Assembly: GCA_938036315.1 (NCBI GenBank)
Contig: CALHPK010000010.1
Coordinates: 1 to 58,742, forward strand
Source: an uncultured bacterium
GTDB taxonomy: Bacteria; Calescibacteriota; Calescibacteriia; Calescibacteriales; Calescibacteriaceae
DNA length: 58,742 nucleotides
Reading direction: 5' to 3'
Shown here: piece after piece, positions 809 through 52,244 of the stretch
Position numbering within the stretch: the stretch's first letter is position 1
How the letters are laid out: each line of letters starts with the position of its first letter
Notes under the pieces: generated by a model
Told to the model about the DNA's origin: nothing
Seen by the model: the letters and a program-made list of their open reading frames with translations, nothing else
Databases searched by the model: none
Made by a program: the position numbers and the translations under genes

Positions 809-1381
809 ATGTTCAGAATGAATCCAATTCTGATAAGGTTTGCCATTTTCATCTTTGTGTCCTCTATTTTTGTTGGGGGACTTTTGGCTGTCCAGCAATT
901 TCCGCAGGTTAGAGAGTTTGATTTTTGGAAAGCAGTGTTTTACAAGAATCCATACCCAGAAAAGCCACCTCAGCCTATTATTTTCCCTCATAACATTCAT
1001 GTGAAAAATTTGGGAATAGATTGCAGATTCTGTCACTATTATGTAGAAAAGTCGAAATACGCCGGTGTTCCATCAGTATCTGAATGTATGGGATGCCACA
1101 AGTACGTAGAATCTGTAAAGGATAGACCAGAAATCAAAAAACTCTTTCAGTATTATGAGGAAGGGAAAAATATCCCGTGGGTAAAAGTTCACAATCTTCC
1201 TGATTTTGTAAGGTTCACACACAGGATGCATATTAATGCAGGGCTTGATTGCTCGAACTGCCATGGAGACGTATCTTCTATGGATACTGTTCACAGGGTT
1301 GCTCCTTTATCTATGGATTGGTGCCTAAGTTGCCATAGGCAAAGTCAAGCCTCTACGGAATGTCAGGTTTGCCACTATTAG
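809..1381 (+). CDS. actA: alternative complex III subunit ActA, pentaheme cytochrome c
   Basis: First gene of an actABCDEF operon. The protein starts with one hydrophobic segment (about residues 8-28), a membrane anchor or signal. It carries five CXXCH haem-binding motifs: CRFCH, CMGCH, CSNCH, CLSCH and CQVCH. This is the ActA pattern, a periplasmic multihaem subunit that passes electrons from quinol oxidation. The frame is open from a TTG at 779, but ATG 809 gives the expected N-terminus; ATG 818 is also possible and none has a strong ribosome binding site. Its stop lies just before actB and overlaps an upstream in-frame ATG of actB. Length (about 190 aa) fits the family. Confidence 0.93.
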   Translation: MFRMNPILIRFAIFIFVSSIFVGGLLAVQQFPQVREFDFWKAVFYKNPYPEKPPQPIIFPHNIHVKNLGIDCRFCHYYVEKSKYAGVPSVSECMGCHKYVESVKDRPEIKKLFQYYEEGKNIPWVKVHNLPDFVRFTHRMHINAGLDCSNCHGDVSSMDTVHRVAPLSMDWCLSCHRQSQASTECQVCHY

Positions 1382-1398
1382 TTGGGGGGAAGATAGCA

Positions 1399-4300
1399 AT
1401 GGGGAAGAAAGAAAAGATTGATGTGGGGAAAAGAGAGCTTTTTAAGCTTTTTGGCAAAACATCGGTAGCCTTGGGAAGTCTTGCGGCCATACAAAGTTGT
1501 GTCAGAAAACCAGAGCCACAAAAACTTATCCCGTACCTTAACACTCCAGAAAAAATCATCCCAGGGATCCCATACTGGTTTGCAACAACGTGTTCGGGTT
1601 GTCCTGCTTGTTGTGGGATTTTGGTGAAGACCGAGGATGGAATTCCCAGAAAGGTGGAGGGTAACCCTCAGAATCCCATAAGCGCTGGCAAGACATGTGT
1701 TAGGGGCCAAGCGATATTACATCAGCTCTACTCTCCTGATAGAATTAAAAAGCCATTGGTCAATGTTGGTGGGAAATTTTCTGAGATTTCCCTTGAGGAT
1801 GCCATATCAAAACTTGTAGATAAGCTTTCACAAACCGATCCGAAAGAAGTATATCTTATCACATCTAATATAACCGGAAGGACAGAAAAATTTTACCAAG
1901 ATTTTGCTCAAAAACTGGGCATACCAGACGAGAATATATTAAGATGGGAAACTGTTTCTTTTAATCATATAAAGGTAGCTTGTGAAAAAGTTTTTAGTAA
2001 AGGTGCAATTCCTATCTTCAGGTTAGATAAATCTGATTTTATAGTTTCTTTCTCGGCGGACTTCCTTGATGTTGGTCCATCTACAGTTTTATACTCTAGA
2101 TGGTTTGTAAAATCTCACGCTGTTGACGAGGTTGAAGGTGAAGCTAAAAAAGGAGCTTTTGTACACATTTCCCCTCATCTTAACCTCACAGGAGCTAATG
2201 CTGACAAGTGGATTAGGGTGAAAGCCGGATCAGAAATTTTTGTAGCAGCGTACCTTCTCAACAAGATAATTGATAAACTCGGAAGGTTTGAAGATCTCAA
2301 GGTAGATATTGAAGGCGATCTTCAAAGTTTAGCAGGGGTTGATCAAAATGAGATAGATAGACTTGCTGATTTTGTTTTGACTTCACATTCTCCATTATTT
2401 ATCCCGCCTTCTACTGGTGATGAGAATCTTACCAATTTAACAATTATTGTTATGCTTTTGAATTATGTAGTCGGTTCAGTAGATAAGCTTGTGATCTTTG
2501 AACCCTCTTTTTCGTATGAAAAACTCGCTACAATAGATGATATTTTGAAATTTGTTAGGAAGATCAGAGATGGTAAGGTTAAAGTTCTTCTTATTATCAA
2601 TTCATATGACCCGGTGTACTCTATCCCTCGCTCAACTGGGTTCCAGTCGGCTTTAGGGCAGGTGCCGTTTGTTGTATCTTTTACATACCATGAGAACGAA
2701 ACAATAAGGTATTCTCATCTTGTTATTCCAGATTATCATGCACTTGAGAAGTGGGGAGATTCTGAGATCATAAAGGGGATTATTAGCTTTTATCAGCCGG
2801 TTGTAGCTCCGCTCTATAAAGATGCTATGCAAGTGGAAGATCTTCTGATTCAAGTTGCAAATAAGCTCAAAGAAGGAGCTTACCCATACAAAAGCTTTTT
2901 GGAGTATCTTAAAGCTGAATACTCTCTCCCCGATGAAGAGTGGCTCTCTGCTCTGGAAAAGGGAGGAATATTTAGCTTCAATCTTGATGAACTTGAAGGA
3001 AAACCAATCTCTTTAAATCCACAGTTGCAGATTAGAGATATTGTAAAATTCAAAAATAAAGTTCAGGATAGTATTTCCCTTGTTATTTATCCTTCGTATA
3101 AAAATTATGAAGGACGGATGGCTAACTCTCCTTGGATCCAAGAATTTTTTGATCCAGTGACACGATGTGCGTGGGGAAATGTTCTTGAAGTTAGCAAAGA
3201 TGTGGCGGAAAAGTTAGGATTCAAAAATGCAGACATAGCCGAAGTTGAAATTGACGGAAGAAAGTTTGAAATCCCAGTTTTCGTTTATTATGGATTGGCA
3301 TATAACACTGTTGCATTGGCTTTGGGAGGTGGGCATGAAAATTACGGTAGATTCGCAACTTCAAAAGGGGTAAATCCATTAAGGTATATTCCCATGAAAA
3401 TTGATGACAAATCTGGTGAGATCTCGTTCACAGTTGAGAACATACGTATTTTGAAGACTGGAAGAAGAATCAGACGCCTTACAACTAATGAAGGTGTTCC
3501 ACGGCAGCTCAAAAGAGATATTGCACATTTCACTTTGCTGTCACAACTTCCAATGCAAAGCTTTGAAAAAAAGTATAAAGATTTTGAGAAAATACTCAAA
3601 AAGAGATTCCCAAGGGGAGATTGGGAGAAATTCAATAGAGATTCAGGAAAGCCCAATCCATATAGATGGAAGATGGTAATCGATTTAGATAAATGTATAG
3701 GGTGTGGTGCTTGTATAGTGGCTTGCCAAGTTGAAAATAATATACCATTTGTTGGTGAAGAGGAGATCTACAGAGGTAGAGAAATTACCTGGATAAGGGT
3801 GGAAAGATATCTATTTTCTGAGGATGAAATACTTAAAGCTAAAAGTATACACAATCATAAGGAACATAATAAGGAACATAATAATGTAGAGAATAATTCA
3901 GCAGGAGAAGTAGATGCTAAATTTCTCGATAAAGTGGTCTTTGTGCCGATGATGTGTCAGCATTGCGAGTATGCTCCATGTGAATATGTTTGCCCTGTCT
4001 ACGCTACTGTCCACTCATCTGATGGACTTAATATCCAAGTTTACAACAGATGTGTTGGGACTCGTTTCTGTGCTAATAACTGCCCATATAAAGTTAGGTA
4101 TTTCAATTTTTATGATTATTACAAGAATGTTCCTGAGCCATTGAACTATGTGCTAAATCCAGACGTAACCTTTCGTTCAAAAGGGGTGATGGAAAAATGT
4201 TCTTTTTGTGTTCAGAGAATAAATTTTGCCCTTCAGAATGCTAAGATAGAAAAAAGAGGGGTAAGAGATGGAGAAGTTATCCCTGCTTGTGCACAGGTTT

Positions 4301-4491
4301 GTCCAGCTGACGCAATAATATTTGGTAATGGGAAGGACGAGAATTCTCAGGTATCAAAAACATCTAGATCAAAAAGAGCGGATTGGGCTCTGAAAGAATT
4401 GGGGGCAGAACCATCTGTGACGTATCTTGAAAAAGTATTTAATTCTAAGCTTTTTGTAAGTAGGGGTGGGGGTAAAGATGGGAATGGCTAA
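1399..4491 (+). CDS. actB: alternative complex III subunit ActB, Mo-enzyme-like/Fe-S fusion
   Basis: About 1,030 residues. The N-terminus 'GKRELFKLFGKTSVALGSLA' resembles a Tat signal with Lys-Arg in place of the twin arginine. Next comes a molybdopterin-oxidoreductase-like domain (about 40-740) with CSGCPACCG near its start, which in this family does not bind molybdenum. A ferredoxin domain (about 755-1000) holds CIGCGACIVAC, CQHCEYAPCEYVC, CVGTRFCANNCP, CSFC and CAQVCP clusters. It relays electrons in the periplasmic arm. ATG 1399 is preferred because GGGGGAAG lies just upstream; the frame is open from ATG 1360. A low-complexity His/Asn/Glu insertion near residues 820-835 arises from a 12-bp tandem repeat. 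The stop overlaps the start of actC. Confidence 0.93.
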   Translation: MGKKEKIDVGKRELFKLFGKTSVALGSLAAIQSCVRKPEPQKLIPYLNTPEKIIPGIPYWFATTCSGCPACCGILVKTEDGIPRKVEGNPQNPISAGKTCVRGQAILHQLYSPDRIKKPLVNVGGKFSEISLEDAISKLVDKLSQTDPKEVYLITSNITGRTEKFYQDFAQKLGIPDENILRWETVSFNHIKVACEKVFSKGAIPIFRLDKSDFIVSFSADFLDVGPSTVLYSRWFVKSHAVDEVEGEAKKGAFVHISPHLNLTGANADKWIRVKAGSEIFVAAYLLNKIIDKLGRFEDLKVDIEGDLQSLAGVDQNEIDRLADFVLTSHSPLFIPPSTGDENLTNLTIIVMLLNYVVGSVDKLVIFEPSFSYEKLATIDDILKFVRKIRDGKVKVLLIINSYDPVYSIPRSTGFQSALGQVPFVVSFTYHENETIRYSHLVIPDYHALEKWGDSEIIKGIISFYQPVVAPLYKDAMQVEDLLIQVANKLKEGAYPYKSFLEYLKAEYSLPDEEWLSALEKGGIFSFNLDELEGKPISLNPQLQIRDIVKFKNKVQDSISLVIYPSYKNYEGRMANSPWIQEFFDPVTRCAWGNVLEVSKDVAEKLGFKNADIAEVEIDGRKFEIPVFVYYGLAYNTVALALGGGHENYGRFATSKGVNPLRYIPMKIDDKSGEISFTVENIRILKTGRRIRRLTTNEGVPRQLKRDIAHFTLLSQLPMQSFEKKYKDFEKILKKRFPRGDWEKFNRDSGKPNPYRWKMVIDLDKCIGCGACIVACQVENNIPFVGEEEIYRGREITWIRVERYLFSEDEILKAKSIHNHKEHNKEHNNVENNSAGEVDAKFLDKVVFVPMMCQHCEYAPCEYVCPVYATVHSSDGLNIQVYNRCVGTRFCANNCPYKVRYFNFYDYYKNVPEPLNYVLNPDVTFRSKGVMEKCSFCVQRINFALQNAKIEKRGVRDGEVIPACAQVCPADAIIFGNGKDENSQVSKTSRSKRADWALKELGAEPSVTYLEKVFNSKLFVSRGGGKDGNG

Positions 4492-24603: not shown

Positions 24604-24681
24604 ATGCTTATCTTTTTTATATAATTATAAAACTACTTAGATGTAGTTTTTTCAGAAATTTTACTACTTGAGCAAACCTTG

Positions 24682-27207
24682 ATGAATATGATAGAAAGTA
24701 TAGTTAGGGATGTTGAGAGCAAGATATTCAAAGAGGATATCCTAACTATTTCACGCGGTATAACTTCAGCTTACGAAGAAAAAATTAAGGAGGTATATAG
24801 AAGAACTATTGGAGACATGGAGATGGTATGCCTTGTGAGTTTTGGTAGTTTTGGTAGAAGAACTATGGCTCCATTTTCAGATATAGATATCTCTATTCTT
24901 GTATTATCAGATAGAGTAAGAGAAAAGAATGAAGATCTTATATCACAGTTTATAACTTCAGTTTGGAATTTAGGATTGCAAAGGGTGGAATGCTCAGTGA
25001 GAACACCGGCAGAGACTCTGAGTCTTGCTTTCGAAGACGTTAGGGTACTATCTTACCTTGCAGATATGAGGTTTATTATAGGAGATTTCAGAGTTTTCAG
25101 AAGAATGAAAAATAAAATACTGGAAACCGGTTTTCTGAAAAACAGCAGGGAACATATTTTCTCTCTACTTGTCCACGACAGAGAGACAAGAATATCTAAA
25201 AACTCAGATATGGTGCAGCCGGATATAAAGCGTTCACTGGGGGGGATAGATGATTTTGTATCGCTGAACTGGTTGAGAAATCTCATTTCTAAAAATATTT
25301 TGGTCCATCCGCGAACTTTGGAGAAAGATTTTCGTCGGCTTCTTGAGCTAAGGACTATTTTGCATCTTATAACAAAGAGAAATGAAAACAAAATATACGT
25401 AGAGCTTGTTAATGAGATAATTAATTTTGTCAGTAGCAGAAAGGATAAGCAATCTGCCCGCGATCCACGAAAGTTTATGACGCAAATTCTGTCGACAATG
25501 GATAAAATTGGAGCTTACGTGAATCTGTCTTATGAGTTCGTGAGACAGCAGATATTTTCGAGTCCATCTCAATTAAGACCATTGGGAGAAAAATATCTTA
25601 CAGACGGGGAATACATCTACGTTCAGAATGGAGTGAACCTTGATGCAGAATCAATTATGGAGATTTTCAAAGTTTCAAAAGATAACAATCTTAAGATCTC
25701 CCCACAGATTAGCTATTTTATTTTAAGGTCACATAGAAAATTTGTAGGTTCACATATGAGTCGTAGGGTCAATTCTCTTCTCTTTGAGATCTTAACAGAT
25801 CTAGGCGGAGTGGCTAGGACACTTGAAAATATGAGGGAGTTAAGGTTCCTCGATAAAGTTATACCTGAGTTTATGAAAGTTCTGAATCTTTATCAGTATT
25901 TTCCTCCTCACATATCTACTGTTGATAGGCATTCTATAAAGTGTGTTGAGGAGATCGAGAAGATCCTGATAGGAATAAGGCCAAGGTATGTGGATATTTT
26001 GCCTGAGATTACAAAAGATGGTAGAGGTGTATTGATACTTGCTGCGCTTTTGCATGATATAGGTAAGGGTAGGAAAAAAGATCACTCCGAAATTTCCGCA
26101 AGGATATCTAAAGTCTTTGGGAAGAGACTAGGATTATCCGGTGACAGTCTAAAAAAGCTTGTTTTTCTTGTCAAGAATCATCTATCTTTATCACACTTTG
26201 CGCAAAGAAGAGATATTCATGATACCACATCTTGCATAAAATTTGCATCAGAATTCCCTGATTCTGCAACTCTTGACTGTTTGTATATTCTATCTATAGC
26301 TGATTCAATAGCCACAAATCCCGAAAGTTGGAACAAGTGGAAAGCTTCATTGATTACTGAGGCTTACATGAAAATATCGGAGTTGATGAGAAAGGGGCTG
26401 GATTACTCTGAAGAGGTTGTTGTTAATACTTATGCTCTTGAGAGCGAGTTGAAGGAAATCTTTGACGAATCTATGGTTAAGGATTATATCTCATCATTGT
26501 CACAAAAGTTCATTTCGTTGTTCAGCTATGATAGATTTTTCAGATATTCCGTTTTATTTCTCAATGTATGTCAGCGTAATCTCAGCAGATATACGGTGTT
26601 TACCGGAAAGAGCGAAGACGTGATGGAAGTAATAACAATTGGTGATGATGAAGTTGGTTTTTTATGTGAATGTGCTGGGGCGTTTTTCCTTTCTGGATTA
26701 AATATACTAACTCTTTATGCTGAAGCAGGAATACTGGGAAAGGCTATGAATGTGTTTTGGGTTGAGCCTGCAGATGAGCAAAAATTCAGAAAATTTAAGC
26801 AACTCATTCTTTCAAAAAGATTAAAGGATATAGTAAAAGAGATTGAGATAAAAAGGGATTCAATCTTGGATATGTTTATGAAACTTAATCCATTTTCAAA
26901 CAAAAATAGTTACGATACTGTCAGACTTGTCTTTGACAATAATTCTTCTAGGGATTACACCATAGTTGAAGTTTACTGCTTTGATAGACCTGGAGTTCTT
27001 TTTGATATGACTTATGCTATATCATTTTCAGGATTCGATATATCTGCAGCGAAAATTTCGACAAGGGAAAATAAGGTAGCAAATACCTTTTACTTGATAG
27101 ATAAATCCACTAATTCAAAGTTGACAGTAGATCAAATCAATGATCTTGCCGCGAGATTAAAGGAGGCTATTGTTCATGGAGTATCTCACCTTCACCCTCT
27201 TCAATGA
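24682..27207 (+). CDS. glnD: GlnD-type [protein-PII] uridylyltransferase/uridylyl-removing enzyme
   Basis: About 841 residues. Nucleotidyltransferase domain: 'SFGSFGRRTMAPFSDIDIS' (about 52-70; the usual motif is GGYGRGEL-x-P-x-SDIDL), then 'QPDIKRSLGGIDDFVSLNWL' (compare PD-x-K-x-x-x-GG-x-RD). HD domain: 'ALLHDIGKGRKKDHSEISAR' (about 455-475). Two C-terminal ACT domains begin near 650 and 762; the second has 'VEVYCFDRPGVLFDMTYAIS'. The enzyme modifies PII in response to glutamine. No glnB or glnA is adjacent, so substrate is inferred. ATG 24682 is preferred to the TTG at 24679. The 3' end overlaps the convergent ParB-like gene by 41 bp. Confidence 0.85.
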   Translation: MNMIESIVRDVESKIFKEDILTISRGITSAYEEKIKEVYRRTIGDMEMVCLVSFGSFGRRTMAPFSDIDISILVLSDRVREKNEDLISQFITSVWNLGLQRVECSVRTPAETLSLAFEDVRVLSYLADMRFIIGDFRVFRRMKNKILETGFLKNSREHIFSLLVHDRETRISKNSDMVQPDIKRSLGGIDDFVSLNWLRNLISKNILVHPRTLEKDFRRLLELRTILHLITKRNENKIYVELVNEIINFVSSRKDKQSARDPRKFMTQILSTMDKIGAYVNLSYEFVRQQIFSSPSQLRPLGEKYLTDGEYIYVQNGVNLDAESIMEIFKVSKDNNLKISPQISYFILRSHRKFVGSHMSRRVNSLLFEILTDLGGVARTLENMRELRFLDKVIPEFMKVLNLYQYFPPHISTVDRHSIKCVEEIEKILIGIRPRYVDILPEITKDGRGVLILAALLHDIGKGRKKDHSEISARISKVFGKRLGLSGDSLKKLVFLVKNHLSLSHFAQRRDIHDTTSCIKFASEFPDSATLDCLYILSIADSIATNPESWNKWKASLITEAYMKISELMRKGLDYSEEVVVNTYALESELKEIFDESMVKDYISSLSQKFISLFSYDRFFRYSVLFLNVCQRNLSRYTVFTGKSEDVMEVITIGDDEVGFLCECAGAFFLSGLNILTLYAEAGILGKAMNVFWVEPADEQKFRKFKQLILSKRLKDIVKEIEIKRDSILDMFMKLNPFSNKNSYDTVRLVFDNNSSRDYTIVEVYCFDRPGVLFDMTYAISFSGFDISAAKISTRENKVANTFYLIDKSTNSKLTVDQINDLAARLKEAIVHGVSHLHPLQ

Positions 27208-28063
27208 TTCCTCTGATCTGCTCAGGGTTATTCTTTAATTCTTCCAATTTCTTTCTTACTTCCTGAAAAACTTCATCAAATTCTACGATAACCTTTTTTC
27301 TTTTTATTGGGTTTGCATAGGATACAACTTCCTTGTAGACAAAAGGATGAGATATTCCCAATGCTTTTAGTTGTTCTACTATTTCCTTTACGATATAATG
27401 GTTTTCAAGGAGTATATCTGCTCTTCTTTGTCTTTCGTTTATAGCTTGCTTCAAGGGCAAATCTAGTGGCCAATCTGACTTTTTGAGGATTGTTTCCCAT
27501 GACGCACCGGAAAATTTGTCTTCTTTCTCATAAACTAGACCTGCCGTTACATAAAATATCTCTTCAACAGCTTGAATGACATCATCTTCTGCCTCTCTTT
27601 TCTCAGGATACATATCACATAGTTCTTTGTATACTCTTAGGGCTACATAACTTTTTTCCTTTATATTGGGTTGCTTTTCTATGTTCAGGTTTATCATTAA
27701 TGTTGCAAGTTCCCACGGGATTACAACCGAAGGAATTTTTCTTATACCAAGGTCAAGGCAAGCAAGGTATCTGTGCTGACCATCTAATATTATGAATCTA
27801 TCTTCATGGGGTTTTTTGGCAACCACTAACGGTACAACAAATCCTAAAGTTGATATTGATTCAGAAAGATTTCTGACGTGGGGTTTGGATGGCTTTCTTT
27901 GATAGACTACCACTTCTAACTTATCAACAGGAACCTCAGCGAAAACTAAGTCATACCCCTTGAAGGGTTCCTTAAGTACAAAGATGTTATCACCCAAGCT
28001 TTTTTTTATTTCAGCTATGTAAGAATCTTTAGCGAAAACTCTATCTTCTGTAGATATCTCCAT
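27167..28063 (-). CDS. ParB/sulfiredoxin-fold nuclease-like or regulator protein
   Basis: 298 residues. The N-terminal ParB-like domain has 'FAEVPVDKLEVVVYQRKPSK', 'VRNLSESISTLGFVVPLVVA' and 'LDGQHRYLACLDLGIRKIPS'; the G-x-x-R-x-x-A motif (GQHRYLA) is the nucleotide-binding loop of the family. The rest is helical, without an obvious helix-turn-helix or leucine zipper. No parA is adjacent, so it is unlikely to be the chromosomal partition protein; a stand-alone regulator or nuclease is more likely. Three palindromic boxes lie directly upstream and may be its own operators. Confidence 0.75.
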   Translation of the reverse strand: MEISTEDRVFAKDSYIAEIKKSLGDNIFVLKEPFKGYDLVFAEVPVDKLEVVVYQRKPSKPHVRNLSESISTLGFVVPLVVAKKPHEDRFIILDGQHRYLACLDLGIRKIPSVVIPWELATLMINLNIEKQPNIKEKSYVALRVYKELCDMYPEKREAEDDVIQAVEEIFYVTAGLVYEKEDKFSGASWETILKKSDWPLDLPLKQAINERQRRADILLENHYIVKEIVEQLKALGISHPFVYKEVVSYANPIKRKKVIVEFDEVFQEVRKKLEELKNNPEQIRGIIEEGEGEILHEQ

Positions 28064-29583: not shown

Positions 29584-30591
29584 TTATTTTTTGTTGTATT
29601 CTTTTGAGATATCAGGTTTAAGTTTACCTTCTGAGATTAGCTTAATGACATGTCTCCAACCGAGTATAAGTGGTAGTTTTTTATCTAGTTCTGTGATTTT
29701 GATGTTTTCACCTGATTTTATTGCTTTCCTTTCTAGATATTCTTTATATTTTTTGAAGGTTATAAGTCCCTTCGGCCATCTTAAGATTCCTCTCCGTGCG
29801 GATGTTTTCAAAAATTTGATTACCTCATCTTTTGAAGGTATATAGCTCCCTACAATAGCCCATCTTTTATCTAAAATATTGTTACCTTTTTCTATCTCTA
29901 AAACTACTCCTTCATTTTCGCTCATGTAGTATTCAAAAAATTTTGAGAAAACCTTTATGTAAAAATCCCTGAAAGGATAATAAAGCTTATCTAATTTTTT
30001 TGGGTCTTCGATTCTGACTTCTCCTCTATAACTGATGTAGAGAGCTTCTTTTACTATATCTTCTATTCCGAATTTTTCCATTTCACTGAGAAATGGTATA
30101 GCATATGTAAGGCAGAAGAATTGAGCTGAGGTAACCAGATTCCCAAGCTTCTCTTTTATTTTATCATTTTTGGTATAGACTATATATGATCTTTTTGCAA
30201 ATCTTCCGACTATATATATTTCGGGTGGTTCGAGAATATACCTTGTGAGATCGCTAAAAGATATTATATTGTACTTGCAAGATTTCGAAGCTGAACCCTG
30301 CCTTACTTCCGCAAAGTAAACTGATGGAGGGAGAATCTTATTCAGAATGATGTAAAGTGGTGAGTTGTAGACTTTTTCATAAAAATCAACCACGATATAA
30401 AAATCGTAAAGAAGGTCTGGGCTATCTTCTTCGAAAAGTCCAGAACCATAAAATATTATTGCAAGTACTGAATCTCCAAACTCTTCTAAAAAATGATCTC
30501 TGAATGCTTCGATAAAGGGTAGTTTGCGAGGAGGAGAGGTTATTTCTTTGAGGACTTCCAATCTTAGTCTATCTATTATGTCATTATGCAC
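29584..30591 (-). CDS. Tam41/Mmp37-like CDP-diacylglycerol synthase
   Basis: 335 residues with the order of motifs of mitochondrial Tam41: 'DSVLAIIFYGSGLFEE' (nucleotidyltransferase GSG, about 41-55), 'LLYDFYIVVDFYEKVYNS' with the metal-site Asp, 'SCKYNIISFSDLTRYI' (compare IKYGVIS...L-x-DL), 'EIYIVGRFAKRSYIVY' (compare LYIAGRLQKPVKI), 'GNLVTSAQFFCLTYAIPFLS' and 'ALYISYRGEVRIE' (compare GLSYSGDFRM). Tam41 makes CDP-diacylglycerol for cardiolipin in mitochondria; CdsA does so in most bacteria. No transmembrane segment is obvious, as expected for a peripheral enzyme. It lies upstream of trpF and pgeF on the minus strand. Confidence 0.82.
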   Translation of the reverse strand: MHNDIIDRLRLEVLKEITSPPRKLPFIEAFRDHFLEEFGDSVLAIIFYGSGLFEEDSPDLLYDFYIVVDFYEKVYNSPLYIILNKILPPSVYFAEVRQGSASKSCKYNIISFSDLTRYILEPPEIYIVGRFAKRSYIVYTKNDKIKEKLGNLVTSAQFFCLTYAIPFLSEMEKFGIEDIVKEALYISYRGEVRIEDPKKLDKLYYPFRDFYIKVFSKFFEYYMSENEGVVLEIEKGNNILDKRWAIVGSYIPSKDEVIKFLKTSARRGILRWPKGLITFKKYKEYLERKAIKSGENIKITELDKKLPLILGWRHVIKLISEGKLKPDISKEYNKK

Positions 30592-46547: not shown

Positions 46548-49500
46548 GTGCTTAGCAAAGGTCTTGCAGACGGCTTTTATATCCCAAAAAAGAGGCTCTT
46601 ATTTCTTCTTTCTCTCCCGATTATCCTATTGGGATGCGCAAGGGGATGCGGAGGAGTACCCCAAAAAATAGTACAAGAACAGAATGAAATACTGATAAGT
46701 GGGATTGTGAAAAATAGCGAAGATGAAGCCCCCGTTGAGTCAGCAATCGTTTCTGTAAAAGTAGATCTGAACAATAATGGCTTCTTTGAACCGGAAGAAA
46801 CATTTATAGATACCACAAGAAAAAATGGGTTCTTTGCCGTGAGAATTCCGATTATAGACAAACCTGCATCCGAAAAGACAATCACTGAAAAAGTTATAAC
46901 CACAAGAATTATCACAGGAAGGGTTCTTATCTCCGTTAGCAAAGAAGGGTATGCTCATAACTCCTTCAATACTGATGTGGGAAATTTTGCAGGAGAGATA
47001 AAAATATCACCAGCAAAAACAGCAGTTGATGAAGATGTTTCTGATGGCATTCAGTTTACATTGACAAGACAAAGAAATTCCCTTGCTCCAAAACTTTATG
47101 GTGGTAAAAATGCTGTTATGAAAAGAATAACAGCAAAGTCAGAAGGTGAGGAAATTCTTGCAACTGTGGATATTTCTCCAGATGATGTTCCCAAAGGGGT
47201 TCAAAGAGTATCGGGTGAAGCTACTTATATAGATCCCATATCGAATCCAGAACTTATGCCCGGGGGGTTTGCCGCTCGTCTCCAGGAAGGAATTATTACG
47301 CTGAGTTCAGCTGGAGTTGTATCCGCTGAGATTTACGATCAGAATGGAAACCCTATAAAAGCAAAAGCAAAGGTAAAGGTAGCAGTTCCAGAAAGTGCTT
47401 ATCACACCCTTTATGACTATGTAGAGGAAACCACAGATAAAGTCGAAGTCCCTTTTTGGCACTTTAATGAATTTGATGGAACATGGCGCCAGAGTGATAA
47501 ACTTGGGATCTTGGTAGATGAGAACGGACAGGTGATAACGCCGGTAAGACTTGCAAAAATAGTCACAGGAAAAGAGAAAACAAAACTCTACACCGAAACG
47601 GAAGTTTCTCATTTCTCAGCGTGGAATGTCGACTACCCTGTTGATACACACGCTTCTGTGATGGGCAGAATAGTTGATTCAGAGGGCAACGGTATTCCAG
47701 GACTTCACATTCAAACTATGGGTAATACATACGGAGGATTAGGAGATTGGAAAGGTACATATACAGATTCCAACGGCGTATTTGGAGTTGATGTGAAAAG
47801 GAGTGAGTCCCAGCAGCCACAGCAGCCATCTATCCCCTTTGAAAATGACTGCGTATGGGAAGTTAATCCAGATACTGTGAAGAAGATGTGCCCAGAAATT
47901 CTTGATTCGTGGTGGAATACCTTAAATCGAGATTTCGAAAGTATAAAAAGAGCGTTTGAACAGTCTTATAAAAATAAATGGATAGATCAAGCTACTTATG
48001 ATCTTGCAAAAGTTCACCTTGATAGAGCCCGAGAAAGCCTTGAAAGAGCAGACTTTAAGGGCGCAAAGGATAGTATAAACAAAGCTATCAATACTATAGG
48101 ATGGAGCGGAAGAGCTGCTGACCAAATATTTTGGGAAAGACTAGCAACATTGCAAGATGAGGCCACAAACTTCCTCAAAGACCAAATTATAGGAACACTG
48201 CAAGGACTTGCTCTTCAGACCATACCCGGATCAAATTGTTATGGCAAAATTTCACAGAGTACGCTGAACTTCATCATAGAAAATATAAAATTACTTTTCA
48301 ATGAGCAGTTGGCAAAAAGTCTCGATGAAGGTGCCATTGTAGGCACTGCACAAATAACATTAGCCCAGCTTCAAAATCTAGCCTCAACTCTGGCTGATGA
48401 AGATCTCATCAAATGCTTTGAAGATATTACAGCAAAATTAGAGGGTGGAATTTCAATTGGACCATTTGAGTGGAATAACAAGTTGAAAGTCAGTAAGTCA
48501 GCAGGTCCAATTTTCGTAGCTCAGACAGCTGCACTCTTTTTAGATCAGATTATGCAATCTTGGCTTGAGCGCGGAGAGTGGAAGCAAGCTAAAGCCTATG
48601 AAACAGTCGTGGACTCTGTTAATTCATATATGCAGAGTGTCGGAGCCACCCTAAGAAAAATTAAAGAAGCTGGAGTAGATGTGGGACAGTGCGCTGAGCT
48701 ACTTTATAGCACAAGATCCTGCAGACAAGGGGGAGGAAGTCCAGCCCCCCATTTCACTGCTCCCCCTTCCCCATCACTTCCATCTCGTACCCCTCTGAAG
48801 CCAAAATCTACCAACCCCGAAGAAGTAGCTACAGTTCTGCAGAGCATAATCGTTGAATTCCTTAAGATTTCCTATAATATCTTAGATGTAAAACTCAAAT
48901 TCATGAATCTCTCAGGAGGAGCAGAATTTTACTCCAACTGGGCAATGCCATCAACTTCAGCTAACACATCCTTCTCAAAAGTTTCACCACCTGACATAAA
49001 TAGAGGAGGAGCAGAAAGATCAAGAATATTGATAAATGGACGTTCAATAGATAAACTCCCAGTGACAACAACAGTCTCAAATACAGGTATTGACTGGAAC
49101 AATTTCGGCTCTCCTATACTCGGCTCAACAAGACACGAAGAGCTTTACCGTAGCTCAGATCTTATCAAAAATCCATCAAGATGGATAGGAGAGTTAGTAC
49201 TCAACATAAAAACATCAAAGGTTTCAGGAAGATTAATGTGCGGAGGAGGTGGAAAAATACCCTGTTCAAATTTACCACTGGTGATCAAGGGACAACTTTC
49301 ATCAGTTCCTACCACAACCAACGAAAAAGGTGAATTTGAAGTTTCAATACCACCAGGTAAAGTATGCCTGCATTCACATTTCATAACGGTAAAATGCTTT
49401 GAAATTAAGGGGGATACGAATCTTGGTGATATTGTGATTTCAAAAAATCTCCAGCCTCGTATCAACTCCTTGTCTATCCCAACTCAAGCTTCCATTGGAG

Positions 49501-52244
49501 AGACAATAAGCCTTGAGGTATCTGCTTCTGACCCAGATAATTACCCTTCCCCACTTTCATTTGAGTGGATTTTGCAGATATGCGGTCCAAGTTCATGCAG
49601 GACAAAATCCATAGGTAAAGCACCAAAAATTTCATTTACTCCCACAGCAGGTGGATGGAACTATATCTCAGTTTGCGTCTCCGATGGTATGGATTCAGTT
49701 TGTAGCTATAAAAATATGAAGGTACTTTCTACCACACCGCCCAGGATTATATCAGTACAGTATCCAGAAGAGATAACCGAGTATGAGAGAGCTAAAATAG
49801 AAGTTCAGGTGCAATCTCAAGATGGTAGTGATCTCTTTTATTACTTTTATCTTGAGGAAGCCCCCGGAAGAATTCACTACTTGGATTCAAGTTCGCAAGC
49901 AGTGTATGACCCGGTATACTGGAGACCTATAACCGAAGATGTAGTCGCAAAAATAAGAGTTAGGGTTGTCGATAGTTCCTGGAGATCGGACGAAAGAGAA
50001 ATACAAATCAGGGTGAAAAATATAATTTCAGAACCAAAAGTTTCAATCTTTGCCGATAGAGTATCAAGCTCTACTCTTCCTTTCACAGTCAATTTCTGCA
50101 CTAAAGGTGAAAACATTCTTGATCAATATGAGTGGGATTTTGATGGTGATGGAACTTATGATTTCTCATCCAGCTACAGATGCGCTTCGTTTACCTACAC
50201 AAAATACGGAAGGTTTAAGGTGAAAGTTAGAGCTCCAGGGATAGAAAAAGGTGATGCAGAGGATTCTTTAGAGGTTAGCGTGTTCTCTCCCCCTTCTGTT
50301 TCTCTGTACGCTGATAAATTAACAGGAACAAGACCCCTTGTAGTAAACTTTGAAGCAAAAGCGTATGATCCTGATGGCAGTATCATAAGATATATCTGGG
50401 ACTTTGATGGTGATGGTAGCAGTGATTATCAGTCAACAGCAAATACTGTAAGCTTCACATTCCCCATAACATCCCCTGCTAGATTTTATTTCCCCAGAGT
50501 CGTGGTATCTGACAATGACGGCTTATCGGCACTGGGTGTCACATCTGTTCAGATTGTGAATCTGCTCCCGTCTGTTTCTCTCTTCGCAGATCGTACCTCA
50601 GGTGTTGTGCCTATTACCGTGAATTTTGTAGCTCAGGCAAGCGACCAAGATGGCTCCGTTTCATATTACATCTGGAACTTTGGAGACGGGACAACAAGCA
50701 TAACTTATACAGACTCAACAACACATACATACACCTTATCCGGAAACTTTACCGCATATGTTGAAGCAGTAGATAATGAAGGAGGAAAGGCAAGATCAAA
50801 CCTTATAACAATAACCGTTTCTGCTCAGGTTGGATGTGATACCCCCCAAGTTTCGCTTTCGCTTACCCCGAGTTCCGGAACAGCTCCCCTTGATGTAACC
50901 TTTACAGCCACAGCTTATTCAAGCTTCAGCATCCAAGAATATAGATGGGACTTCAAAGGGGATGGAACTGTAGATGCAATATCACAGTCGAACACCACTT
51001 CTTATACATATCAAACCGGAGGACAATATTATCCAAAGGTTTGGGCAGTGAATTCCTGTGGCGGGGTTGGATACGCTACAGCTACAATCACTGTTCAGTC
51101 AGTACATCCACTATTTTCACAAAAGGTCTCTTCTGTTACTACTTATACTCCCTCCGTCTCCAATGATAATGGCTTTTTCATTGCCGATATGAATTCGGAT
51201 GGGAAACCAGATATGATTTTGGGCTCAGGAGAATATGCCTTTATTCTTACATATGACTCAGTAAGTTTTGGTTTTTCAGACTCAAGACAGGTTTTCTCTT
51301 CTGGTGAGATTATCAATGATATAGTTGCCGATGACTTCACAGGAGATGGGAAACTTGATGCTGTGTTCTTAGGTGGTTTTGATAAAGTGGCTTGCTATGC
51401 AGGGGACGGGAATGGACGCTTCAATTCAAGCATAACATGGGGTATAAGTTTACACAGCAACGGAATAGATTGCTTTCCATTTTCTGTGACTTCAGCTGAT
51501 CTGAATTCCGATGGGAAGAAAGACATAATTCTGGGGTGCTCAGGTAAGCCGGTTATCCTTTATGGTAATGGCAATTGCCAGTTTAACTATCAAAATCCTG
51601 TTACACTTCCTATTCCTATTCTTCACGGTTGGCAAACCAAAGTTATTGCAAAAGATATGAATGGAGATGGGTATCTTGACATAGTAGGCAACGAGCGTGA
51701 TTTCGGTTATCTGTGGATCGTAACGGGTCCATCGTATTCATCAGCCATAACCTTTGGTAATTCTATTACCTTTACCGATATTGATGTAGGAGACTTTAAC
51801 GGAGATGGCAAACCAGAGGTAGTCGGAATATCACAATCAAAGTATATCTATATCTTCAAGAATAATTATCCAAATTTCCCTATTTCATCTTCTGTATATG
51901 TTGATATACCTCCAACAACAACACCATACTCCTGTGGGATTGCTCTGGGAGATTTGAATTCTGATGCAATTCCCGACGCTACCACAATATGTTACTCAAG
52001 TGGAGTTACAAACATGAGCGCTATTGCGTTAGGTAAATCCAACGCAACCTTTGACAATCCATATTATTACTACAGTCAGACTTCTCATCCTTTTTATCCT
52101 CTTGCTGACTCAAACTTTAGTGCTATAGGAAGACCCCATATTTTCGTGGTGAATCTTGGAAACAGAAAAGGAGTTATCTTTGTCTTTGTAAATGCCAATA
52201 ACCAGGTTCAGATTGTGATTCTGAAAACCCGTGAGAGCGAATAA
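46548..52244 (+). CDS. giant PKD/FG-GAP surface lipoprotein
   Basis: 1,898 residues, start GTG after AAAAAGGAGG. Signal peptide with lipobox LLGC (Cys30). Then carboxypeptidase-regulatory/Ig-like domains (about 45-130 and 370-425, 'MGRIVDSEGNGIPGLHIQ'), a long helical middle (about 430-760), a Pro/Ser-rich linker (about 735-765, 'APHFTAPPSPSLPSRTPLKP'), another regulatory-like domain (about 885-960) and an Ig/cadherin-like domain (about 965-1060). Four PKD domains begin near 1162, 1248, 1341 and 1433 ('YEWDFDGDGTYDF', 'YIWDFDGDGSSDY', 'YIWNFGDGTT', 'YRWDFKGDGTVD'). Six FG-GAP/VCBS repeats follow (about 1540-1815, 'DMNSDGKPD', 'DFTGDGKLD', 'DLNSDGKKD', 'DMNGDGYLD', 'DFNGDGKPE', 'DLNSDAIPD'), which would bind calcium. 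Adhesion or polysaccharide binding is likely. Confidence 0.85.
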   Translation: MLSKGLADGFYIPKKRLLFLLSLPIILLGCARGCGGVPQKIVQEQNEILISGIVKNSEDEAPVESAIVSVKVDLNNNGFFEPEETFIDTTRKNGFFAVRIPIIDKPASEKTITEKVITTRIITGRVLISVSKEGYAHNSFNTDVGNFAGEIKISPAKTAVDEDVSDGIQFTLTRQRNSLAPKLYGGKNAVMKRITAKSEGEEILATVDISPDDVPKGVQRVSGEATYIDPISNPELMPGGFAARLQEGIITLSSAGVVSAEIYDQNGNPIKAKAKVKVAVPESAYHTLYDYVEETTDKVEVPFWHFNEFDGTWRQSDKLGILVDENGQVITPVRLAKIVTGKEKTKLYTETEVSHFSAWNVDYPVDTHASVMGRIVDSEGNGIPGLHIQTMGNTYGGLGDWKGTYTDSNGVFGVDVKRSESQQPQQPSIPFENDCVWEVNPDTVKKMCPEILDSWWNTLNRDFESIKRAFEQSYKNKWIDQATYDLAKVHLDRARESLERADFKGAKDSINKAINTIGWSGRAADQIFWERLATLQDEATNFLKDQIIGTLQGLALQTIPGSNCYGKISQSTLNFIIENIKLLFNEQLAKSLDEGAIVGTAQITLAQLQNLASTLADEDLIKCFEDITAKLEGGISIGPFEWNNKLKVSKSAGPIFVAQTAALFLDQIMQSWLERGEWKQAKAYETVVDSVNSYMQSVGATLRKIKEAGVDVGQCAELLYSTRSCRQGGGSPAPHFTAPPSPSLPSRTPLKPKSTNPEEVATVLQSIIVEFLKISYNILDVKLKFMNLSGGAEFYSNWAMPSTSANTSFSKVSPPDINRGGAERSRILINGRSIDKLPVTTTVSNTGIDWNNFGSPILGSTRHEELYRSSDLIKNPSRWIGELVLNIKTSKVSGRLMCGGGGKIPCSNLPLVIKGQLSSVPTTTNEKGEFEVSIPPGKVCLHSHFITVKCFEIKGDTNLGDIVISKNLQPRINSLSIPTQASIGETISLEVSASDPDNYPSPLSFEWILQICGPSSCRTKSIGKAPKISFTPTAGGWNYISVCVSDGMDSVCSYKNMKVLSTTPPRIISVQYPEEITEYERAKIEVQVQSQDGSDLFYYFYLEEAPGRIHYLDSSSQAVYDPVYWRPITEDVVAKIRVRVVDSSWRSDEREIQIRVKNIISEPKVSIFADRVSSSTLPFTVNFCTKGENILDQYEWDFDGDGTYDFSSSYRCASFTYTKYGRFKVKVRAPGIEKGDAEDSLEVSVFSPPSVSLYADKLTGTRPLVVNFEAKAYDPDGSIIRYIWDFDGDGSSDYQSTANTVSFTFPITSPARFYFPRVVVSDNDGLSALGVTSVQIVNLLPSVSLFADRTSGVVPITVNFVAQASDQDGSVSYYIWNFGDGTTSITYTDSTTHTYTLSGNFTAYVEAVDNEGGKARSNLITITVSAQVGCDTPQVSLSLTPSSGTAPLDVTFTATAYSSFSIQEYRWDFKGDGTVDAISQSNTTSYTYQTGGQYYPKVWAVNSCGGVGYATATITVQSVHPLFSQKVSSVTTYTPSVSNDNGFFIADMNSDGKPDMILGSGEYAFILTYDSVSFGFSDSRQVFSSGEIINDIVADDFTGDGKLDAVFLGGFDKVACYAGDGNGRFNSSITWGISLHSNGIDCFPFSVTSADLNSDGKKDIILGCSGKPVILYGNGNCQFNYQNPVTLPIPILHGWQTKVIAKDMNGDGYLDIVGNERDFGYLWIVTGPSYSSAITFGNSITFTDIDVGDFNGDGKPEVVGISQSKYIYIFKNNYPNFPISSSVYVDIPPTTTPYSCGIALGDLNSDAIPDATTICYSSGVTNMSAIALGKSNATFDNPYYYYSQTSHPFYPLADSNFSAIGRPHIFVVNLGNRKGVIFVFVNANNQVQIVILKTRESE

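Follow-up and report, generated by a model that had tools for sequence, protein, structure and literature searches.

What does a protein with the motifs of a mitochondrial CDP-diacylglycerol synthase do in a bacterium? The question is raised by an ORF on contig C10 of a 1.87 Mb, 85% complete assembly, within the stretch of 58,742 nucleotides that was analyzed as a whole (the window). An earlier note had read the ORF as Tam41 rather than CdsA, and had suggested that such an enzyme may replace CdsA or supply a separate pool of CDP-diacylglycerol (CDP-DAG). All motifs on which that reading was built are found in the 335-residue ORF and follow one another in the same order; the gene and its parts, with two further C-terminal features, are as follows:

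29584–30591, minus strand: Tam41-like gene, an ORF with GTG start encoding 335 aa; predicted CTP:lipid-phosphate cytidylyltransferase from its PF09139 and structure matches
30439–30450, minus strand: YGSG, residues 48–51, the G-S signature of nucleotidyltransferases; Y48, G49 and S50 invariant in 31/31 sequences
30403–30405, minus strand: D63 (in LYDFY), the sole acidic residue kept family-wide (31/31); putative metal/CTP site by analogy with Tam41
30247–30276, minus strand: KYNIISFSDL, residues 106–115, corresponding to KYG of Tam41; K106 invariant
30190–30219, minus strand: IYIVGRFAKR, residues 125–134, corresponding to AGRFQK of Tam41; R130 invariant
30010–30039, minus strand: YISYRGEVRI, residues 185–194, corresponding to LSYLGDIRM of Tam41; Y188 and R193 invariant
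29755–29781, minus strand: RWPKGLITF, residues 271–279, C-terminal motif of the bacterial subfamily (RWPK; RLxK in proteobacteria)
29617–29673, minus strand: PLILGWRHVIKLISEGKLK tail, residues 307–325, basic/aromatic and subfamily-conserved; not in canonical bacterial Tam41 (L070)

The underlying alignment of 31 sequences, which takes in the S. pombe and Firmicutes Tam41 fragments from the PDB, contains eight invariant residues (Y48, G49, S50, D63, K106, R130, Y188, and R193). Of the three usual acidic residues, Tam41 retains a single one (PMC11646218), which D63 fits. No reason was found to suppose that the protein is inactive, and it is predicted to be a working enzyme.

The family assignment is carried by several kinds of comparison. 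PF09139 (Tam41_Mmp37) is the sole Pfam match of the ORF (residues 88–225, E 3e-8) and scores above the curated cut-off (33.8 vs. 24 bits), while PF01148 (CdsA) is not matched in the same search; a genome-wide search recovers a single PF09139 gene in the assembly, at 29.9 bits. For the catalytic N-terminal half and for the C-terminal half, the tie to Tam41 comes from structure and from profile comparison with a canonical bacterial Tam41. A profile is required here, as a single-sequence phmmer search of the PDB gives no match for the protein. The sequence profile retrieves 6ig2/6ig4 (E 1.5e-10) and 7ecd (E 1e-6) from the PDB, and the canonical bacterial Tam41 L070 (PF09139 E 9e-21) aligns with the Tam41-like profile over 248 columns (hhalign 97.4%, E 1.3e-11). 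The structure model, built from a ten-sequence alignment (A2), reaches a pLDDT of 83.3 and a pTM of 0.84, and is predicted to have the two-domain layout of 6ig2 and 7ecd with a nucleotidyltransferase domain and a helical C-terminal domain. It matches Firmicutes Tam41 (7ecd) with a Z of 18.8 over 228 residues at 2.9 Å (VIA-align) and S. pombe Tam41 with a Z of 16.5 (6ig2) and 16.3 (6ig4). The next fold after Tam41, kanamycin nucleotidyltransferase, follows at Z 6.9 over about 115 residues; no better match to another nucleotidyltransferase family was found, and no non-Tam41 family had a comparable score in the structure comparison, an absence which does not amount to proof. The PF09139 match, the profile and structure matches and the invariant residues thus bear out the placement in the Tam41 family and not with CdsA (PF01148), whose type of product would be alike but whose fold and family are unrelated.

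With mitochondrial Tam41/Mmp37 of S. pombe (6ig2/6ig4) the protein has PF09139, fold and motif order in common, at about 18% identity; with Firmicutes Tam41 (7ecd) it shares the two-domain fold and the YGS, D, K, R, and SY..R residues, but only about 20% identity. The two measures of closeness disagree, since profile A1 scores S. pombe at 43.9 and Firmicutes at 31.3 bits whereas structure puts Firmicutes first. Comparison via PDB sequences yields no sign of a particular tie between the bacterial protein and the mitochondrial branch, and the bearing on the origin of the mitochondrial enzyme that the earlier note raised finds no support here. Furthermore, Tam41 in a bacterium is not a first. The Firmicutes enzyme has been crystallized (PDB 7ecd) and, as cited in PMC11646218, was reported to make CDP-DAG (Kimura 2022), and the view that Tam41 is known mainly from eukaryotes is therefore outdated.

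Within this family, the Tam41-like protein is a member of a divergent bacterial subfamily that is patchily distributed and has a conserved C-terminal tail of its own. A profile made from seven members detects full-length relatives in 20 of 386 genomes, scattered across bacteria, and many of these members score under the Pfam cut-off. None of the six plasmid-borne proteobacterial members matches Pfam, even at E 1, and neither of the two proteobacterial members run against NCBIfam gives a match there. The subfamily C-terminus consists of the RWPK (or RLxK) motif and a PLIxGWRHxxKLxxxGK tail, which is weaker in the proteobacterial members; canonical bacterial Tam41 (L070), in contrast, is without the conserved PLIxGWRHxxKL tail. 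The Tam41-like protein is basic (pI 8.95; 23 K/R vs. 10 D/E in the last 85 residues) and has no transmembrane-like segment, its best 19-residue hydropathy being 1.16 vs. 2.59 for CdsA of the same genome. Judging from its composition and conservation, the tail is a candidate membrane contact; its region of the model is of low confidence (pLDDT about 50–66). A supposed Capnocytophaga member (L018) was discarded as a chance match inside a membrane-transporter frame. In the genus of genome G228, the gene occurs in 7 of the 15 species examined (L156–L163; G456), a pattern suggestive of transfer-driven gain or loss, or else of gaps in the assemblies.

The nearest copies, at 53–58% identity, come from Bacterium HR19, Candidatus Calescibacterium nevadense, Calescibacterium SKYB43, and MAG BF2, and by this gene-level similarity the host is placed in or close to the Calescibacteriota (Calescamantes), a hot-spring phylum. 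All five Calescibacteriota family members examined carry the gene at full length, and in the tree their sequences form a single clade (support 100/100) apart from the proteobacterial clade; because of this complete, single-clade occurrence the gene looks stable and vertically kept. Gene order around it is not kept: its neighbors in the window are trpF, a YfiH-type gene, and a ParB-like gene, and the Calescibacteriota relatives have other neighbors in a scrambled order. Within Calescibacteriota no operon-type linkage to lipid genes surrounds the gene, and no ceramide kinase, CDP-alcohol phosphotransferase, or serine palmitoyltransferase was found close to it, either in the window or in the four relatives' neighborhoods, as far as these were scanned.

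Several other genes of the window deserve mention in their own right. A GlnD-like protein of 842 aa from this deep-branching phylum (24679–27207, plus strand) combines nucleotidyltransferase, GlnD_UR_UTase, HD, and ACT domains, several of which score under the Pfam cut-offs, and the 3′ end of its gene has a convergent 41-base overlap with that of a 298-aa ParB-N-domain protein (27167–28063, minus strand). A protein of 1898 aa with PKD and FG-GAP repeats (46548–52244, plus strand) is probably a surface protein, and a single chain of 1043 aa (1360–4491, plus strand) unites a molybdopterin-oxidoreductase domain with 4Fe-4S dicluster domains.

Whether the Tam41-like gene stands in for CdsA can be answered directly. 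The host genome holds an intact CdsA gene on another contig (C2:45956–46768, PF01148 E 5e-60), which is its single PF01148 gene and whose sequence bears the CdsA-type C-terminal signature KDSGFLIPGHGGVLDRVDS. Canonical CdsA was found in every carrier tested (7/7, comprising the host, four Calescibacteriota, and two distant carriers). Replacement of CdsA, one of the two roles put forward in the earlier note, is thereby ruled out, and because CdsA is also present the Tam41-like gene is an addition; the other role, a separate CDP-lipid pool, is plausible.

We consider it likely that the Tam41-like protein is a second, peripheral CTP:lipid-phosphate cytidylyltransferase making a dedicated CDP-lipid, either CDP-DAG or CDP-ceramide. 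As a soluble or peripheral membrane enzyme of the Tam41 fold, it would transfer the CMP of CTP to a membrane lipid phosphate, releasing pyrophosphate and leaving a CDP-activated lipid. Several lipid kinases of the diacylglycerol-kinase family are encoded in the genome, and one of them would probably supply the lipid phosphate; a CDP-alcohol phosphotransferase would then take up the product. The host genome has five DAGK_cat matches and four CDP-OH_P_transf (CDP-alcohol phosphotransferase) matches, so that the kinase step before and the transferase step after are both represented; none of these genes is linked to the Tam41-like gene. Since CdsA is also present, a dedicated second pool would be the most likely role, rather than bulk phospholipid synthesis, and in the host phosphatidate is the more likely substrate than ceramide-1-phosphate. 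Against the reading as a second cytidylyltransferase speak the unlinked position of the Calescibacteriota gene, the identity of only about 18–20% to characterized Tam41, and the possibility that a bacterial Tam41 could back up CdsA on bulk phosphatidate. Elsewhere in the host genome, a lipid-kinase gene adjoins a PssA-type CDP-alcohol phosphotransferase (L087, C6 4403–6191, minus strand; pssA 114 bits, above the cut-off). On C9, an epimerase in the vicinity of a lipid kinase was considered as part of a split version of the G018 operon described below, and was rejected, as a better epimerase homolog lies on C4 with no recognizable lipid genes nearby.

Linkage to lipid genes is seen in distant relatives. 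In G018, the gene order is lipid kinase (DAGK_cat), Tam41-like gene, NAD epimerase, and PlsC acyltransferase; in G309, a lipid kinase lies immediately upstream; in G228, a CDP-alcohol phosphotransferase and a lipid kinase are followed by a fatty-acid desaturase, the Tam41-like gene, and DUF2141; and in G198, a PlsC acyltransferase is found directly upstream. Other members of the subfamily have no lipid neighbors. The rough probability that a lipid kinase would by chance lie within two genes in 3 of 13 chromosomal lineages, 13 being an assumed number, is 2e-4.

The closest competitor of the dedicated-pool reading is a plain CDP-diacylglycerol synthase, which would provide bulk CDP-DAG beside CdsA either redundantly or under particular conditions, in the manner of canonical bacterial and mitochondrial Tam41. 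The CDP-DAG formation reported for Firmicutes Tam41 (Kimura 2022, cited in PMC11646218) and the relief of phosphatidate accumulation by yeast Tam41 in E. coli cdsA mutants (PMC6362211) are in line with such a role, as are the conserved active-site residues and the position of PlsC, within the operon in G018 and just upstream of the gene in G198. The persistence of CdsA in every carrier tested, the subfamily's own tail, and the lipid-kinase and ceramide-locus context of the relatives argue the other way, and on balance we regard a plain synthase as quite possible, falling slightly short of an even chance.

The ceramide-locus context concerns a published pathway. In the Caulobacter gene cluster for ceramide-phosphoglycerate (CPG), the ceramide kinase is encoded by CC_1160, and the step that follows depends on CC_1161 (cpgC) (PMC11324152). 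CpgC is required for the conversion of ceramide-1-phosphate (C1P) to CPG, by a mechanism given as unidentified in two papers from 2025 and 2026 (PMC12275187, PMC13228409); in one published paper, the InterPro domain of CC_1161 was taken to suggest a CDP-DAG synthase, and an NDP-ceramide was proposed. On plasmids of three Roseomonas species, a CDP-alcohol phosphatidyltransferase and an acylglycerol kinase are followed by a Tam41-like gene annotated as “hypothetical protein,” with genes for LptF/LptG permeases, a HIT protein, a metallophosphoesterase, and a nucleotidyltransferase also nearby. The R. mucosa and R. haemaphysalidis loci add a PLP aminotransferase and an ACP, and the aminotransferase of R. 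mucosa scores above the NCBIfam cut-off for serine palmitoyltransferase (612.7 vs. 500 bits). Variant loci occur on Pseudomonas pPNP1, Diaphorobacter pDCB2, and Qipengyuania plas1. The lipid kinase adjoins the Tam41-like gene in the Roseomonas, Pseudomonas, and Qipengyuania loci, and several of the loci with a lipid kinase beside or near the Tam41-like gene, those of the distant relatives above included, also contain a CDP-alcohol phosphotransferase and/or PlsC. The Roseomonas-type loci match the Caulobacter cluster, with the Tam41-like gene at the position of cpgC.

Profile comparison connects these proteins with the gene in the window. The Tam41-like subfamily aligns with six plasmid-borne proteins from the cpgC position over 271 columns (hhalign 99.9%, E 1.3e-31), so that its homology to the cpgC-position proteins of Roseomonas, Qipengyuania, and related loci extends along most of the chain, with the invariant residues in common. 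The proteobacterial set alone finds no Tam41 in the PDB, and with Calescibacteriota-type sequences added the Tam41 structures are found. At the level of sequence, the Calescibacteriota-type proteins are thus a bridge between characterized Tam41 and the Pfam-unrecognized “hypothetical proteins” of proteobacterial ceramide loci. Caulobacter CpgC itself (CCNA_01219/CC_1161) would fall into the subfamily by its gene position and the published InterPro remark; in the Caulobacter control genome PF09139 does not reach E 0.001. Unlike the genes of the CpgC loci, those of Calescibacteriota lie outside any ceramide locus and in a separate clade.

These loci raise a further alternative, namely that the subfamily comprises ceramide-1-phosphate cytidylyltransferases making CDP-ceramide for phosphosphingolipids, and that Calescibacteriota produce such lipids. 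Members at the cpgC position beside ceramide-kinase-like and CDP-alcohol phosphotransferase genes, in Roseomonas together with serine palmitoyltransferase (Spt) and ACP, speak for it, as do the 271-column profile match to the cpgC-position proteins, the requirement for CpgC between C1P and CPG (PMC12275187, PMC13228409), and the NDP-ceramide intermediate proposed in the literature. The host also has an Spt-like gene (L094, C17:8936–10246, plus strand), 39–41% identical to Roseomonas Spt, and all four Calescibacteriota relatives have one as well. Its best NCBIfam model, however, is SerpalmtaseCFB, with a score (499.6 bits) that falls short of the cut-off of 640 (bioF 390), and Spt-like scores at E ≤ 1e-95 are found in 224 of 386 genomes, the E. 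coli and B. subtilis controls included. Because this threshold is unspecific, the co-occurrence neither supports nor refutes a sphingolipid reading. An AOS gene at C7:81911 was also considered as Spt and set aside, BioF being its nearest model. No ceramide-synthase candidate was identified, and the Calescibacteriota clade is separate from the proteobacterial one. Sphingolipid synthesis in Calescibacteriota is accordingly put forward as a weak hypothesis from gene content, and we judge CDP-ceramide formation across the subfamily, the host included, to be unlikely. Finally, a nucleotidyltransferase acting on a small molecule or a protein instead of a lipid, comparable to aminoglycoside or MNT-type enzymes of the same superfamily, is very improbable, since the common core seen with kanamycin nucleotidyltransferase (Z 6.9, about 115 residues) is set against Tam41 matches that span both domains (Z 16–19), the Tam41-specific K, GR, and SY..E.R motifs that are kept, and the lipid-gene context of the relatives.

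New here is the sequence link between the Tam41-like subfamily and the cpgC-position proteins. With this bridge, CDP-lipid formation can be proposed and tested as a concrete mechanism for the CpgC step, and the Tam41 fold may be a recurring means of CDP-activation for special bacterial lipids. If CDP-ceramide were indeed the product, it would be the sphingolipid counterpart of CDP-DAG, the CpgC step would be explained by the Tam41 fold, and a deep-branching hot-spring phylum would produce phosphosphingolipids.
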